Assembly (NCBI GenBank): GCA_024653345.1
Contig: JANLFV010000002.1
Coordinates: forward strand, 1 to 64,000
Source: Candidatus Acetothermia bacterium
GTDB lineage: Bacteria > Bipolaricaulota > Bipolaricaulia > RBG-16-55-9 > JANLFV01
Direction: 5' to 3'
Length of the DNA stretch: 64,000 bases
Made by a program: the position numbers and the translations under genes. Shown here piece after piece: positions 36,205-42,136 of this stretch (within the stretch, counting starts at the first letter, position 1; each line of letters opens with the position of its first letter). Under the pieces are notes generated by a model. The model searched no databases and was not told the origin of the DNA. It saw only the letters and a list, made by a program, of their open reading frames with translations.

Positions 36205-36355
36205 TATAATCGGCGCTATGGGGGCCTTCCCCCTCTACGCTCGGGTTGATCTTCCCCTGACCTGCGGGTGCTACCTCTTCGCCGGCCAGGATCGGCCGAG
36301 CTTCGATGGCAGAGGGAACCGGCCCGCGAGCCCGAGCGAGCGCCCCTCGGGCTAG
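36205..36355 (+). other. TATAAT box with a 45-codon frame
   Basis: TATAAT (36205-36210) lies 7 nt before an ATG at 36218 that opens a 45-codon frame ending 36355 (starts MGAFPLYARVDLPLTCGCYL). The frame overlaps the mutL 3' end by 4 nt. Its spacing copies the leaderless genes of this window, but there is no good -35 and the predicted peptide is low-complexity towards its end. It could be a gene remnant or a non-coding transcript. Confidence 0.25.
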
Positions 36356-38100
36356 CGCCGGCCGAAGCTCCTCTCGAGGTCCTCCAGCGTGTATTTCACG
36401 ATGATCGGCCGGCCGTGCGGGCAACGGTAGGGGTTCTCGAGCCTCTGGAGGTTCCGAACGAGCTCCTCCATCTCCTCCAGCGAGAGCGCGGTATTCTTGA
36501 CGATCGCGGCCGCGCAGGCGAGCTCGGACGCAACCTGCTCGACGAGTTCAGCGAACTCCGGCTCATCGCCGGCCTCGAGGAGTCGCAGGATCTTCTGGAG
36601 CGCCTCCCGTGCGCTCTCCTTCGTCAGCCGCTCGGCCAGCACCTGGGGCCACTCGCGGAGGATAAAGGAGCCTCCGCCGAAGGCCTCCAGGCCAATCCCC
36701 AGCCTCTCCGAGAGCCGGTCGATCCACGGGGTAAGCAGCTCGGCCTCGTCGGGCGAGAGCTCGATCGTGAGCGGGATGAGCAGCCTCTGGCGCGGGATCT
36801 GGCCGGCCCGAAGTTGGGCCATGAACCTCTCGTAGAGGACCTGCTCGTGGGCCACATGCTGGTCGATCAGCTCCAGTCCCTCCTCCGTCTGAACAAGGAT
36901 ATAGGTGTTATGGAGCTGGCCGAGGATCTTCCAGGAGGGCTTGCACTCCTCCGGCTCGAGCAGGGGCTCCGGGCCGCGGGGCCGTAGTGCGGCGAGCTCC
37001 CTCTTCAGGTCGAGCCCGACCGGCTGGCCAGCGCGCGGCTGGCGGAGGTCGAGCCTCCCCCGGCGGCTGGCCTCGGGCCGAGGTCGGACTTCTTCAAGCC
37101 GGGGGACCGCCTGACGGGAGAGGAGCCCCGCCCCCAGGGCTCGCCGGAGCTCGGCCTGGACGAGCTGGCTGTCGGAGAACCGGACCTCCTCCTTGCGGGG
37201 ATGAACATTGACATCGACCAGCTCGGGCGAGATCTCGATGAAGATGAACGCCGGCGGGAATCTCCCGCTCTTCACCAGCCCCTCGTAGGAGCGGGAGAGG
37301 GCGTAGTTCAGGCCCTGGTCGCGCACATACCGTCCGTTGACGATGATGAACTGATCCTGCCGGTCCGCGCGAGCCTCCTCGGGAGGGCCGACCAGGCCGT
37401 GGACTCGCACCAGATTCCCGCCGCTCTGAACCTCGATCAACCTCCGGGCGAACTCAGGGCCGTAGAGCGTCGCGACGCGCTCGCGCAAGTCTTGCTGGGG
37501 CGGAGCTTCGAGCACAAGCCGGCCGTCGCTCGCCAGCCGGAAGTGAACGAGCGGCCGGGCGAGGATGAACCGCTTCATCACTCTCGTGATGTGGAGCCCT
37601 TCGGTCCTCTCGCCGCGGAGGTATTTCCGCCGCGCGGGGGTGTTGTAGAAGAGTTCCTGCACTTCCACGGTTGTTCCGGGGGCTCGCCCACTCGGCTCGA
37701 CCGAGATGACCTTGCCACCCGCGACCTCGAGGCGGACCGCCTCGTCGGCTCCTCGGGCCCGAGTCGTGATAGTCGTTCGGGAGACCTCGACGATCGAGGC
37801 GAGTGCCTCGCCGCGGAACCCGAGGGTGCTGATCCTCTCCAGGTCCTCCTCTGTCGCGATCTTCGAGGTGGTATGCCGCCGGATGGCCAGCTCCAGATCC
37901 TCGCGGGACATGCCCTCGCCGTCGTCGGAGACGGTGATCTTGGCGAGCCCTCCCTGGTCGATGGAGACATATATCCGGGCTGCTCCGGCATCGAGGCTGT
38001 TCTCGACCAGCTCTTTCACCACGGAAGCGGGCCGCTCGATCACCTCGCCCGCGGCGATCTTGTTCACTAGATGCGGGTCGAGCACCCTGATCCTGCCCAT
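36352..38100 (-). CDS. mutL: DNA mismatch repair protein MutL
   Basis: A 582-residue GHKL ATPase coordinating mismatch repair. N-terminal ATPase motifs are NKIAAGEVIERPASVVKELVE (cut here to the core), SLDAGAARIYV, ITVSDDGEGMSREDLELA, TLGFRGEALASI and GTTVEVQELFYNTPARRKYL. The C-terminal domain has the endonuclease-type DQHVAHEQVLYERF, matching the DQHAxxERxxYE motif with a Val in it, and ends CPHGRPIIVKYTLEDLERSFGR, so it is probably a nicking-type MutL. MutS is not in the window. A -10 TATCCT ends 9 nt before the ATG. Confidence 0.95.
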   Translation of the reverse strand: MGRIRVLDPHLVNKIAAGEVIERPASVVKELVENSLDAGAARIYVSIDQGGLAKITVSDDGEGMSREDLELAIRRHTTSKIATEEDLERISTLGFRGEALASIVEVSRTTITTRARGADEAVRLEVAGGKVISVEPSGRAPGTTVEVQELFYNTPARRKYLRGERTEGLHITRVMKRFILARPLVHFRLASDGRLVLEAPPQQDLRERVATLYGPEFARRLIEVQSGGNLVRVHGLVGPPEEARADRQDQFIIVNGRYVRDQGLNYALSRSYEGLVKSGRFPPAFIFIEISPELVDVNVHPRKEEVRFSDSQLVQAELRRALGAGLLSRQAVPRLEEVRPRPEASRRGRLDLRQPRAGQPVGLDLKRELAALRPRGPEPLLEPEECKPSWKILGQLHNTYILVQTEEGLELIDQHVAHEQVLYERFMAQLRAGQIPRQRLLIPLTIELSPDEAELLTPWIDRLSERLGIGLEAFGGGSFILREWPQVLAERLTKESAREALQKILRLLEAGDEPEFAELVEQVASELACAAAIVKNTALSLEEMEELVRNLQRLENPYRCPHGRPIIVKYTLEDLERSFGRR

Positions 38101-38157: not shown

Positions 38158-38186
38158 TTGATCTCGAGCCAGTCTTGTGCTATACT
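38158..38186 (+). promoter_or_regulatory. Promoter of the split tRNA-Asn gene
   Basis: TTGATC, a 17-nt spacer and TATACT, ending 11 nt before the first tRNA nucleotide. Confidence 0.65.
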
Positions 38187-38232
38187 GACGCCGATCTTCC
38201 CGGGTAGCTCAACCGGCAGAGCGGGTGGCTGT

Positions 38233-38778
38233 AGGGAGGCATGGAGCAGGTGGCTGACAGGCGAGCATACGCTGATCGGCGCGGATACTTGATCGAGGCC
38301 GTGCGGAGCCGCCGGAAGAGGATTCGCAGGATGGCTCTGCAGTATGAGGGTGCTAGATGTAGCATCTGCGGCTACGATCGGTGCGAAGGAGCGCTGGAGT
38401 TTCACCAACTAGAGGCCACAAGTAAGGACTTTGGGATCTCCGACAAGGGGTATACCCGGAGTTGGAGAAAGGTCCGAGAGGAGCTAGATAGGTGCATACT
38501 CCTATGTGCCAATTGCCATCGCGAAGTCCATGCCGGAATGCAGCTTCCACGGGAAACCGTGGTCGAAGAATCGGGTGAATTCAGGGGAGCCTACCCCGAA
38601 AGGAAGGGTAACCCTGAGCGAAGCCTGCCGAAGGGACTTGGAGTAGGCAGGAACGTGCAGAGACTAGAGGCTGAGGATCCCACCAATAATGCCTCGCGAG
38701 CGCCCGACACCCTCTCCCTGGTCCTCCAGGGCGGGTGAAGAGATAGTCCGAGCCCAGCAGAAATGCTGGGGGAACTCG
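38233..38778 (+). mobile_element. Group I intron (IC3-like) in tRNA-Asn
   Basis: A 546-nt self-splicing intron. The conserved core is at the 3' end: P element 38577-38592 (AATTCAGGGGAGCC), Q 38610-38625 (AACCCTGAGCGAAGCC), R 38655-38668 (GTGCAGAGACTAGA) and S 38741-38749 (AGATAGTCC). P4 pairs TCAGGG with CCCTGA and P7 pairs GACTA with TAGTC. P6 pairs CCTGCC with GGCAGG, P3 pairs GGTG with CACC, and P9 is CCCAGCA-GAA-ATGCTGGG-like with a GAAA loop. The order and wording match tRNA introns of subgroup IC3, such as the Azoarcus tRNA-Ile intron. P1 may pair exon CTGT with GCAG at 38246-38249 (U-G at the splice site). The first part of the intron carries an HNH frame. Confidence 0.94.
38241..38738 (+). 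CDS. HNH homing endonuclease within the tRNA-Asn intron
   Basis: A 165-residue frame with an HNH nuclease at about residues 35-100: CSICGYDRC, LEFHQLEATSKDFG and LLCANCHREVHAG, giving the zinc ligands and the catalytic His residues. The N-terminal 30 residues are very basic and could bind DNA. The last 60 residues are translated from the intron catalytic core (P, Q and R elements), so the frame stays open through the ribozyme. The first ATG sits only 1 nt after AGGGAGG; a GTG at 38250, 10 nt after it, may be the real start. It probably cuts intron-less tRNA-Asn genes to spread the intron. Confidence 0.85.
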   Translation: MEQVADRRAYADRRGYLIEAVRSRRKRIRRMALQYEGARCSICGYDRCEGALEFHQLEATSKDFGISDKGYTRSWRKVREELDRCILLCANCHREVHAGMQLPRETVVEESGEFRGAYPERKGNPERSLPKGLGVGRNVQRLEAEDPTNNASRAPDTLSLVLQGG

Positions 38779-38885
38779 TAACCACTAGGTTGCAGGTTCG
38801 AGTCCTGCCCCGGGAGCCAGGTCAGTATTGGTTCAACCCTTTGTTGTGTCGGGAGTATTCCCCTCTCGAACATCTTTGGCCCACT

Positions 38886-39323
38886 CTATCTCGTTGGCTC
38901 CAGCTTCCTCAGCTCGACTCGGTGACTACCGTGTCTCTCAGCCAACTTTAGTAGACCCCGTGCCACCTCGGGGACGCTCAGCCGCGCGGCAGCATCGCGG
39001 TAGAACTGCTCCAAGACCTCCTCGGCCCGCTGCGCTAGCTCGAGCAGCTCGGCATCTCTTCCCTCAGCAGAGGGCCGGAGCTCGAGCCGGTAGCCATCGG
39101 CCCTCATTTCGTGGACCGGCTCCAGCAGCATCTCGCTGATGTTCTCCCGCCGCTCGCGCTCCAGCCGCTGCCGGTGCCTCTCCGCAGCCCTTGCCAGCTC
39201 CTCGAGGACGCTCTTTGTCTTATCACCTCGAGCCGCACGTGCCCAGTCTCGATATAGCTCTGCAGCCCGGCCTTCAAGCTCGATGCCGAACCGGAGCAGC
39301 GCCCCGAAGGTGGTGAGCTCCAT
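38886..39323 (-). CDS. Ferritin-like helical-bundle protein
   Basis: A 145-residue all-helical protein resembling the rubrerythrin/ferritin fold. Candidate metal ligands are Glu in ELEGRAAELYRDWA, E/H in EELARAAERHRQRL, Glu in AQRAEEVLEQFY and H in LAERHGSH. It has no rubredoxin tail. It may handle iron or peroxide; the four-helix pattern is visible but the diiron site is not proven. The ATG at 39323 lies 5 nt after the mmsA stop, so it is probably the last gene of that operon. The longer frame upstream overlaps mmsA and was rejected. Confidence 0.7.
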   Translation of the reverse strand: MELTTFGALLRFGIELEGRAAELYRDWARAARGDKTKSVLEELARAAERHRQRLERERRENISEMLLEPVHEMRADGYRLELRPSAEGRDAELLELAQRAEEVLEQFYRDAAARLSVPEVARGLLKLAERHGSHRVELRKLEPTR

Positions 39324-39328
39324 CTCCC

Positions 39329-40777
39329 CTACCACCACCTGGTGATCACGACCTTCTTCTCGGTGAAGAAGTCGATCGCGTCCCGCCCCTGGCCGTGGAG
39401 GTCGCCGAAGAAGGAGTCCTTTCGCCCGCCGAAGGGGAAGAAAGCCATCGGGGCGACGATCCCCACATTGATCCCGATGTTCCCGCACTTGACGCGATAC
39501 TTGAACTCCCGCGCGGCGCTCCCGCTGGTGGTGAAGATCGAGGAGGCATTGCCGTAGGGGTTGGCATGGATGATCTCGATCGCCTCATCCAGGTCCGCCA
39601 CTCTGATGATGCTCGCCACTGGCCCGAAGATCTCCTCCCGCGCGATCGCCATCTCCGGCCGGACGCGGTCGAAGACCGTCGGGCCGATGAAGTAGCCCTC
39701 CTCGTGGCCCGCGACCCTGATGCTCCTTCCGTCAAGGAGGAGCCTCGCCCCCTCCTGCAATCCTCGGTCGATGTAGCCTAGGACTCGCTCTTTGTGCTTC
39801 TTGGAGATCACCGGCCCCATCTGGACTGTCTCGTCCAGGGGGTCCCCGACCTTCAGCTTGCCCGCCGCGGCAGTGAACCTCTCCTTTAGGGGCTCGTATA
39901 CTTCGCCGACCGGCAGGAGGACCGAGCCGGAGAGGCAGCGCTCCCCAGCGCAGCCGAAGAAGGAGGTGATCAGTGGGGGGATCGTCCGATCGAGATCCGC
40001 ATCGGGCATGACGACGATGAAGTTCTTCGCCCCGGCTTGGCACTGGACCCGCTTTCCGTGCTCCGCGGCCTTTCTGTAAATGTATCGCGCGACCGGAGTC
40101 GAGGTAACTGAGGAGATCCCGACCACATCGGGGCTCTCCAGGAGGTGGTCCACAACGCCCTTGGCTCCGTTCACGAGGTTGAGCACCCCCGGAGGGAGAT
40201 CGAGCTCGTCGACCAGCTGGAAGATCTTGTTCTGAACGATGGGCACCTGCTCGGAGGGCTTGACGATATAGGTGTTGCCCGCGGCGATGGCATAGGGGGC
40301 AAACCACCAGGGGACCATCGCGGGGAAGTTGAACGGCGGGATCACGGCGAAGACCCCCAGGGGCTGCCGGACGACCTCCTCGTCGATCCCGCGGGCGATG
40401 TCCTCCAGGCTATAGCCCATCATCAGGGAGGGGATTCCCGTGGCGACCTCAACATTCTCGATCAGGCGGCGCATCTCACCGCGGGCCTCGTCCAGGGTCT
40501 TCCCCTCCTCAGAGGAGATCGTCCGGGCAAGCGCCTCGAAATGATCCTCCAGGAGGCCCTTGAGGCGGAAGAGATACTGGATCCTGGTCGTGGGCGGGGT
40601 CTCCCGCCACTCGGGGAAAGCCTCACAGGCCGCGCGGATCGCCGCCTCGACCTCTTCGTCGGTGGAAAGAGGGACCTGAGCGAGCACCTCTTCCGTGGCG
40701 GGATTGCGGACCTCGAGCGATTCTTGTGACTTCGACTCCCGCCACTCCCCTCCGATGTAGTTCTTCAACCTATCCAT
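39329..40777 (-). CDS. mmsA: CoA-acylating (methyl)malonate-semialdehyde dehydrogenase
   Basis: A 482-residue aldehyde dehydrogenase that turns malonate semialdehyde (or methylmalonate semialdehyde) into acetyl-CoA (or propionyl-CoA), NADH and CO2. The family N-terminus is NYIGGEWRESKS. PFNFPAMVPWWFAPYAI, QCQAGAKNFIVVMPDAD and the catalytic Cys in GCAGERCLSGS are the MmsA pattern, and the C-terminus has INVGIVAPMAFFPFGG. The neighbouring genes make it the final step of uracil/thymine breakdown. The ribosome binding site is TAAGGAGGT. Confidence 0.94.
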   Translation of the reverse strand: MDRLKNYIGGEWRESKSQESLEVRNPATEEVLAQVPLSTDEEVEAAIRAACEAFPEWRETPPTTRIQYLFRLKGLLEDHFEALARTISSEEGKTLDEARGEMRRLIENVEVATGIPSLMMGYSLEDIARGIDEEVVRQPLGVFAVIPPFNFPAMVPWWFAPYAIAAGNTYIVKPSEQVPIVQNKIFQLVDELDLPPGVLNLVNGAKGVVDHLLESPDVVGISSVTSTPVARYIYRKAAEHGKRVQCQAGAKNFIVVMPDADLDRTIPPLITSFFGCAGERCLSGSVLLPVGEVYEPLKERFTAAAGKLKVGDPLDETVQMGPVISKKHKERVLGYIDRGLQEGARLLLDGRSIRVAGHEEGYFIGPTVFDRVRPEMAIAREEIFGPVASIIRVADLDEAIEIIHANPYGNASSIFTTSGSAAREFKYRVKCGNIGINVGIVAPMAFFPFGGRKDSFFGDLHGQGRDAIDFFTEKKVVITRWW

Positions 40778-40789
40778 GAGCGGACCTCC

Positions 40790-42136
40790 TTAGTCTGCCT
40801 CATGATCGGCCATCTCCAAGACTTCGTCCAAGGCCTGGAGCCCTCTGTCGATCTCCGCCTCGGTGATGATGAGCGGCGGGGCGATCACGAAGTGGTTATA
40901 CCAGCTCGATAGATAGACGCCGCGCTTCAGCATCTCCGCGGAGAGCCTCTCGGTCAAGAGCGGCTTCAGGGCGGCCTTGTCGGCCTTGGTGCTGAACGGC
41001 TCCTTCGTCTCCCTGTTCTTGACCAGCTCGACAGCCCAGAAGTGGCCGAGCCCCCGGACATCGCCGATGCTCTTGTGCTTGGTGAAGAGCCGGCGGAGCC
41101 CCTGGGCGAGGTGCTCGCTGACGCGCTGGGGTAGGCCCGTCGCGAAGAGCTTCTTATACTCCGCAATGGCCGCGGGGATGGCCGCGAGCGTGAGCGGGTG
41201 CATGCTATAAGTGTGGCCATGGGCAAAGAAGCGCTCCTCGAAGTGGCCGCGGATCTTGGCTGTCGTCGCGGTCACCCCGACGGGGGCGTAGGCACCAGTG
41301 CAGCCCTTGGCGGTGGTCAAGATATCGGGCTTGACATCCCAATGGTCGACGGCGAACCGCTTGCCCGTCCGATACCAGCCGCTCATCACCTCGTCCGCGA
41401 CGAGCAAGACGCCATTCTCATCCGCGATCTGCCTCAGTCTAGGGAGATACTCCGGCGGCGGGACGATGATCCCGTTCGTCCCGACGACCGGCTCGATGAA
41501 GATCGCGGCAACATTCCCCTCCTCCTTGATCATGTAGTCAACGTATTCGGCGCACTGGATCTGGCAGCCGGGATGCTCGAGCCCGAAGGGGCAGCGGTAG
41601 CAGTAGGCGTCAGGGGCGAAGATCACGCCGGGGAGCTTGTTCATCGGCTCGGCGAACCACCGCCGGAAGTCCCCGGTGAGGGCGATGCTCCCCCCAGTCG
41701 AGCCGTGGTAGGAGCGGTATCTGGAGATGATCTTATACTTCCCTTGGGGCGCGAGATACTGGCGGACGATCTTCAGGGCCGCCTCGTTCGCCTCCGTCCC
41801 CGAGGAGGAGAAGAAGAACTGGTCCAGTCCCTCAGGCATGGCCTCGAGGAGGGCCTCGACCGCGCGGGCCTTCGCCTCGCAGACGAAGCCCGGGGCCACA
41901 TAGGGGAGCCGCTCGGCCTGCTCCTTGATCGCTGCGATCAGCGCCCTGTTCCCGTGGCCGAGGTTCGAGCACATCAGCTGTGAAGAGAAATCGAGGTATG
42001 CCCTGCCCTGATCGTCGTAGAAGCAGGCCCCCTCGGCCTTGGCGATGAAGAGCGGCCTCTTCCAGGCCTTCTGGGCCCGCCAACTGCCGTAGCTGTGGCT
42101 TGTGATCAGCTCCACTAGCTTCTCTATATCGGTCAT
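40790..42136 (-). CDS. Class III aminotransferase, probable beta-alanine aminotransferase
   Basis: A 448-residue PLP enzyme of fold type I, class III. Blocks are YLDFSSQLMCSNLGHGNRAL, FFSSSGTEANEAALKIVRQY and LLVADEVMSGWYRTGKRFAV, and the PLP-lysine lies in TTAKGCTGAYAPVGVT. By context it transaminates beta-alanine (or 3-aminoisobutyrate) to malonate semialdehyde, feeding MmsA directly downstream. Taurine- or GABA-type activity cannot be excluded. It heads the minus-strand arm of the divergent pyrimidine region; an AAGGAG site precedes the ATG. Confidence 0.88.
   Translation of the reverse strand: MTDIEKLVELITSHSYGSWRAQKAWKRPLFIAKAEGACFYDDQGRAYLDFSSQLMCSNLGHGNRALIAAIKEQAERLPYVAPGFVCEAKARAVEALLEAMPEGLDQFFFSSSGTEANEAALKIVRQYLAPQGKYKIISRYRSYHGSTGGSIALTGDFRRWFAEPMNKLPGVIFAPDAYCYRCPFGLEHPGCQIQCAEYVDYMIKEEGNVAAIFIEPVVGTNGIIVPPPEYLPRLRQIADENGVLLVADEVMSGWYRTGKRFAVDHWDVKPDILTTAKGCTGAYAPVGVTATTAKIRGHFEERFFAHGHTYSMHPLTLAAIPAAIAEYKKLFATGLPQRVSEHLAQGLRRLFTKHKSIGDVRGLGHFWAVELVKNRETKEPFSTKADKAALKPLLTERLSAEMLKRGVYLSSWYNHFVIAPPLIITEAEIDRGLQALDEVLEMADHEAD

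Follow-up and report, generated by a model that had tools for sequence, protein, structure and literature searches.

By its sequence and conserved structure, the stretch from 38233 to 38778 is a real group I intron of IC3-like type lying within the anticodon of a tRNA-Asn(GUU) gene in a Candidatus Acetothermia bacterium. Positions refer to the window, i.e. the whole 64,000-nt stretch of contig JANLFV010000002.1 that was analysed. Our explanation as a whole is that this split tRNA-Asn gene carries a self-splicing intron which would be, or would recently have been, mobile by means of an HNH endonuclease that is now probably inactive, and that the same genome holds a second, intronless tRNA-Asn. 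We give this reading a probability of about 0.9. The gene and its surroundings are laid out as follows:

36352-38100, minus strand: mutL, divergent neighbour (context only)
38158-38186, plus strand: sigma-70-like promoter TTGATC-17-TATACT with extended -10 (TG); a consensus match only, 1 site against 0.2 expected in shuffles
38198-38232, plus strand: 5' exon of tRNA-Asn(GUU), last nucleotide U35 (ARAGORN)
38233-38778, plus strand: group I intron, 546 nt, omega-G at 38778 (Rfam match, ARAGORN, homologues at the same site)
38241-38738, plus strand: HNH endonuclease ORF, 165 aa from ATG 38241 (phrog_2255 match, relatives)
38779-38819, plus strand: 3' exon of tRNA-Asn, first nucleotide U36, ending in GCCA (ARAGORN)

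Joined, 38198-38232 and 38779-38819 form a 76-nt tRNA-Asn(GUU) with a full cloverleaf, an encoded CCA, U1-A72 and G73, and with these features and the GUU anticodon it is predicted to be functional. The identity elements of tRNA-Asn are presumably among these features. Run with introns allowed, ARAGORN placed a tRNA-Asn(gtt) at 38198-38819, interrupted after position 35 by an intron of 546 nt; without the intron option no tRNA was called at 38198-38819. Thus the initial annotation was right in reading two exons of a perfect 76-nt tRNA-Asn around a 546-nt insert, and also in placing the cut between U35 and U36. This cut is unambiguous, with U35 as the last nucleotide of the 5' exon and G 38778 as the last of the intron, and no other cut yields a 7-nt anticodon loop. 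A tRNA gene beside mutL was sought in other members of the order and none was found, and no integrase was seen among the examined genes adjoining the split tRNA-Asn. Downstream, the minus strand of 38886-42136 encodes a rubrerythrin-like protein, an aldehyde dehydrogenase and a class III aminotransferase.

The Rfam family Intron_gpI (RF00028) matched 38486-38770 with 72.9 bits (E 1.4e-16, full model 1-253, gathering score 50), and this is the only RF00028 match in the genome. The elements of the core were assigned as follows, all on the plus strand:

38540-38545: internal guide sequence GCAGCU, pairing with the 5' exon GGCUGU (38227-38232) as P1, with a G.U pair at the splice site
38547-38562: P2 hairpin CCACGG-GAAA-CCGUGG (two-sided changes in all six pairs)
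38571-38577: 5' strand of P3, partner 38701-38707 (covariation alignment)
38581-38617: P4 (38581-38586/38612-38617) and P5 (38589-38591/38607-38609) (covariation alignment)
38624-38651: P6 (38624-38629/38646-38651) (two-sided changes in 6 of 6 pairs)
38662-38748: P7, GACUA at 38662-38666 and UAGUC at 38744-38748 (Rfam match, covariation alignment)
38701-38707 and 38708-38712/38733-38737: 3' strand of P3 and P8, both inside P7 (Rfam match, covariation alignment)
38753-38770: P9 hairpin CCCAGCA-GAAA-UGCUGGG (Rfam match, covariation alignment)

Covariation was assessed on 20 aligned intron cores from the tRNA-Asn site with our own P1-P9 model of 51 pairs. Standard pairs occupied 93.8% of the cells, and 34 of the 51 pairs showed changes on both sides. 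The covariation score was 0.482; shuffling lowered it to 0.185, and with the partner strand slid it did not exceed 0.12. Every pair of P2, P6 and P9 covaries, and the support extends to P3 and P8. The U.G pair of P1 is present in 20 of 20 cores and the next three pairs are likewise invariant. In P7 four of the five pairs never vary, so that the support for this helix comes from its conservation and from the Rfam match. Such near-invariance is expected of the guide and of the guanosine site, and covariation is therefore less informative there. The intron-terminal G (38778) recurs in all homologues compared, a result to which the search pattern itself contributed in part. The P1 loop, which contains most of the nuclease part of the ORF, measures about 307 nt in the window copy as against 6-8 nt in three relatives. 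A hairpin insert of about 35 nt separates P7 from P3' in the window copy; P7.1/P7.2 is absent from the shortest homologues. The minimum-energy fold of core plus 3' exon had a modest z of -2.7 relative to shuffles, computed with a program that cannot represent pseudoknots and hence does not display the pseudoknotted core.

In a tree of the cores, the tRNA-Asn introns fell among introns of tRNA-Leu, tRNA-Arg and tRNA-fMet and apart from the 23S rRNA introns, which sit on a long separate branch; the backbone of this tree is weakly supported. These results bear out the group I assignment of the initial annotation, for which it had proposed the Rfam search as a check, and its P4, P6 and P7 pairings and P9 hairpin are upheld by the 20-homologue alignment (P7 by conservation and family match). 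Its "IC3-like" label agrees with the kinship to tRNA-Leu, Arg and fMet introns, within the limits of the weak backbone. From the anatomy, the family match and the covarying structure we infer that the intron splices itself in the cell. After transcription, GGCUGU of the 5' exon would pair with the guide GCAGCU to form P1, a guanosine bound in P7 would attack after U35, and U35 would then attack after the omega-G, so that the joined exons would yield a normal tRNA-Asn.

The ORF in the P1 loop, overlooked in the initial annotation together with the loop itself, matches phrog_2255 (E 1e-24), and its score with Pfam PF01844 is 13.7 bits, under the cut-off of 21.4. Its likelier start is GTG 38250, which lies 10 nt after GGGAGG (38234-38239). 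The HNH domain covers approximately aa 10-100, and the last 60 or so codons are the intron core read in frame through P3-P8, an arrangement also seen in the ORFs of G007 and G097, two genomes of the same phylum. With the frame continuing through P3-P8, translation of the HNH protein could hinder folding of the intron. In its catalytic motif the protein deviates from the relatives at the following codon (relatives and viral motif comparison):

38406-38408, plus strand: codon 56, CAA, encoding Gln in place of a His of the FHH motif in relatives

Of 98 viral motif matches, 96 have this second His, as do G007 and G097; the window protein reads FHQ. We take the second His of FHH to be the general base of the HNH enzymes. 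With Gln in the place of this catalytic residue, the window protein is probably inactive, a degenerate member of its family. The dN/dS of the window gene relative to these two relatives is about 0.13-0.17, a value which says that purifying selection would have acted on the gene during most of its past. Relatives on viral contigs reach 60% identity, and the window protein appears to derive from nucleases of phage tRNA clusters. Such viral relatives, endonucleases of the same family, occur free-standing between the tRNA genes of large phage tRNA arrays (L015, L016, L018-L020, L024, L033, L044, L047).

The intron is not confined to the window. Among 100 genomes of the phylum (the genomes compared being mostly metagenome assemblies), six have it in tRNA-Asn, and in G016, G007, G020, G028 and G097 it is the same intron at the same site with a core identity of 80-85%. 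Matches in G058 and G078 were set aside because the matched sequences are unlike tRNA-Asn. A pattern scan of GTDB returned at least 80 loci, and about three quarters of 80 failed the exon test for a split tRNA-Asn; scan and exon test together added at least 20 named genomes in which tRNA-Asn is interrupted at 35/36, and in 16 of these the intron scores above the gathering threshold of Rfam. The bacterial hosts are Cyanobacteria (Microcoleus, Hormoscilla, Tychonema), Patescibacteria including WWE3, Omnitrophota and Nitrospira, and further a deltaproteobacterium, for which the tree tool gives the label Myxococcota, and an Ignavibacteriae bin. Two hosts are archaea of Candidatus Pacearchaeota (L104 and L112), again with tRNA-Asn cut at 35/36. 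Their exons have G1-C72 as in archaeal tRNAs, and the contigs encode FtsZ (both) and TYW3 (L112) near the tRNA. The intron of L104 scores 83 bits with RF00028; that of L112 gave no Rfam hit above threshold, though its core aligns throughout. In a tree, the Nitrospira intron nests inside the phylum of the window with support of 92/96 and 90/80, a position suggesting that the intron has passed from one phylum to another.

ORF-bearing introns are intermixed with ORF-less ones, which in relatives have 252-258 nt and the same core. The HNH gene is intact in G007, G097 and WWE3, mutated in its motif in the window, frameshifted in L165 and L135, partly deleted in L112 and L134, and absent from others. 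A homing cycle, in which an element invades, decays and is finally lost, predicts just such a series of intact, mutated, frameshifted, deleted and lost genes. The intron would be a current or recent mobile element: the HNH protein made from the P1 loop would cleave the anticodon region of tRNA-Asn genes that have no intron, which would then acquire a copy of it during repair. Both this homing activity and its probable loss in the window copy, with FHQ for FHH, are read from sequence.

Other group I introns were encountered in the course of these comparisons. Seven other genomes of the phylum have them in 23S rRNA (L003, L006, L007, L011-L014), several with long inserts. The 23S rRNA introns of the same order were considered as a source of the tRNA-Asn intron and rejected as a different family; L003 and L007, when placed in the tree, form a family separate from it. 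One 23S rRNA intron (L006, G003:C12:3117-3458, minus strand; also L285) contains a circularly permuted tRNA in its P6 region, in which the 3' half, with CCA, precedes the 5' half by about 20 nt. When rejoined, the halves form a cloverleaf, with some choices of ends a tRNA-Lys(UUU). The genome has a full normal set of tRNAs including Lys-UUU, and the permuted tRNA is an extra one. Additional split tRNAs in the same genomes as split tRNA-Asn genes (L297 in Nitrospira, L300 in Hormoscilla, L296, L298) indicate that several per genome are possible; reading of the exons revealed introns in tRNA-fMet of Nitrospira and Hormoscilla, in tRNA-Leu of Hormoscilla and in tRNA-Arg(CCU) of Microcoleus.

In several hosts the split gene appears to be the only source of tRNA-Asn. 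One of them is G020, a closed single-contig genome of 1.70 Mb (99% complete). Its tRNAs were located with RF00005 and each one was read: 45 intact tRNAs cover all amino acids but Asn, and the only tRNA-Asn is the copy split by a 258-nt ORF-less version of the intron. Since the split gene is the sole tRNA-Asn, splicing by the ribozyme should be essential for translation in this organism. Pattern search of the other four (G007, G016, G028, G097; some of them incomplete) found the split gene and no intronless tRNA-Asn, and splicing should be obligatory there as well. Of 15 named genomes tested, 14 had no match to an intronless tRNA-Asn.

The window genome (G000) is different in this respect. It was supposed in the initial annotation that the cell would depend on the ribozyme for all GUU decoding if the split gene were the sole copy; this fails, as an intronless tRNA-Asn(GUU) lies at C26:128505 (L223; pattern search match at G000:C26:128535). 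The tRNA scores 65.1 bits with RF00005, is read as Asn(gtt) by ARAGORN, and is present with identical sequence in the congener G001 (C41, L224). It shares 52 of 76 positions with the split tRNA-Asn, i.e. the two are not recent duplicates, and the split exons are closer to split tRNA-Asn genes of other phyla (64-65 of 76). Its D-stem (GTCC/GGGC) is unusual, it is unlike the other compared tRNA-Asn genes of the phylum, and it has no encoded CCA, which holds for a few other tRNAs of the genome too. A search for another tRNA from which it could originate gave no clear parent.

With a second, intronless tRNA-Asn at hand and a mutated endonuclease motif, the split gene could be a dying or dead extra copy whose intron is a relic and whose splicing is no longer needed, the intronless tRNA doing the work. 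A functional intronless copy had indeed been named beforehand as a sign that the split one is dead. An intronless copy exists, but we do not conclude that the split gene is dead, because its exons form a perfect cloverleaf with CCA, its core helices covary and are intact in the window, and its promoter match is good. The oddities of the intronless copy itself also speak against this explanation, which we consider unlikely. Insertion into the anticodon loop and the two archaeal hosts would be compatible with removal by proteins, a tRNA endonuclease acting on a bulge-helix-bulge and a ligase as in archaea and eukaryotes, instead of by the intron RNA. Yet the window genome is bacterial, and the intron has a full group I core: the U.G pair at the 5' splice site is invariant, P7 is nearly so, and the last nucleotide is G. 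Splicing by proteins is thus highly improbable.

The third alternative concerns the HNH protein, which may be a maturase or a retained DNA-binding protein and no homing nuclease, with FHQ marking a new role. That the frame is open and dN/dS is low although the His is lost fits this idea. However, the same dN/dS would be seen if inactivation was recent, and relatives have introns with this core but no ORF (252-258 nt), in G020 even in the sole tRNA-Asn, so that splicing in these cases does not require the protein. Such a role therefore seems quite doubtful. We retain the reading of a self-splicing intron that is, or was until recently, mobile.

Taken further, the distribution could reflect one intron family that is specialised on position 35/36 of the tRNA-Asn anticodon, armed with an HNH endonuclease like those of phage tRNA arrays, spread over bacterial phyla and DPANN archaea, and often capturing the sole tRNA-Asn. 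We propose this tentatively and rate its chances at a little below even. If true, the decoding of all Asn codons in many hosts depends on a ribozyme. The comparisons themselves show a single site, the tRNA-Asn anticodon, interrupted in many phyla and also in archaea, and an endonuclease gene at stages from intact to lost. There is also a practical aspect: tRNA scans that disallow long introns miss such genes, and the genomes then seem to be without tRNA-Asn.

That bacterial tRNAs can harbour group I introns is textbook knowledge, but the openly readable reviews list few host tRNAs. Reported hosts are tRNA-Leu and tRNA-fMet in cyanobacteria, along with alpha- and betaproteobacterial introns, mostly at 37/38 (PMC4033280), and tRNA-fMet and tRNA-Ile2 (PMC8450103). 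tRNA-Asn is not mentioned in PMC3984707, and circularised, mostly CPR genomes have group I introns in some unspecified tRNAs (PMC8172020). The 39 archaeal group I introns of Nawrocki et al. 2018 (PMC6125680), with DPANN hosts, are all in rRNA genes. Our search, which covered mostly openly readable papers, turned up no account of a bacterial tRNA-Asn split by a group I intron, none of a tRNA intron with an HNH gene in its P1 loop, and none of an archaeal tRNA that hosts a group I intron. The doubt in the initial annotation that tRNA-Asn is a known host was thus justified as regards these papers, but the intron itself recurs at the same site elsewhere. What we describe is a known kind of element, an IC3 intron in a bacterial tRNA, whose host tRNA, nuclease class and archaeal range are unreported in the openly readable literature.

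Like the IC3 introns of tRNA-Leu(UAA), tRNA-Ile(CAU) (Azoarcus), tRNA-Arg(CCU) and tRNA-fMet, the tRNA-Asn intron is inserted in the anticodon loop and has a small core, P2 and P9 hairpins, an RF00028 match and a terminal G, and in the tree its cores intermingle with the Leu, Arg and fMet introns of Hormoscilla, Microcoleus and Nitrospira. It differs from them in the host tRNA, the cut at 35/36, the HNH ORF in the P1 loop and, as a family, the optional hairpin insert between P7 and P3'. The endonuclease of the cyanobacterial tRNA-fMet intron reportedly has a fold other than HNH, and the phage enzyme SegB is, we assume, of the GIY-YIG type. The window protein, of HNH type, differs in this from the tRNA-fMet enzyme and resembles it in being encoded by a tRNA group I intron and in its predicted specificity for the anticodon region (Bonocora and Shub 2001, cited in PMC3984707). 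With the endonucleases of phage tRNA clusters, i.e. the phrog_2255 HNH proteins and the free-standing SegB of T4 (PMC13096335), it shares the tie to tRNA genes, but it is borne by an intron. Finally, L104 and L112 resemble the introns of PMC6125680 as group I introns of DPANN archaea and, unlike these rRNA introns, reside in tRNA-Asn.
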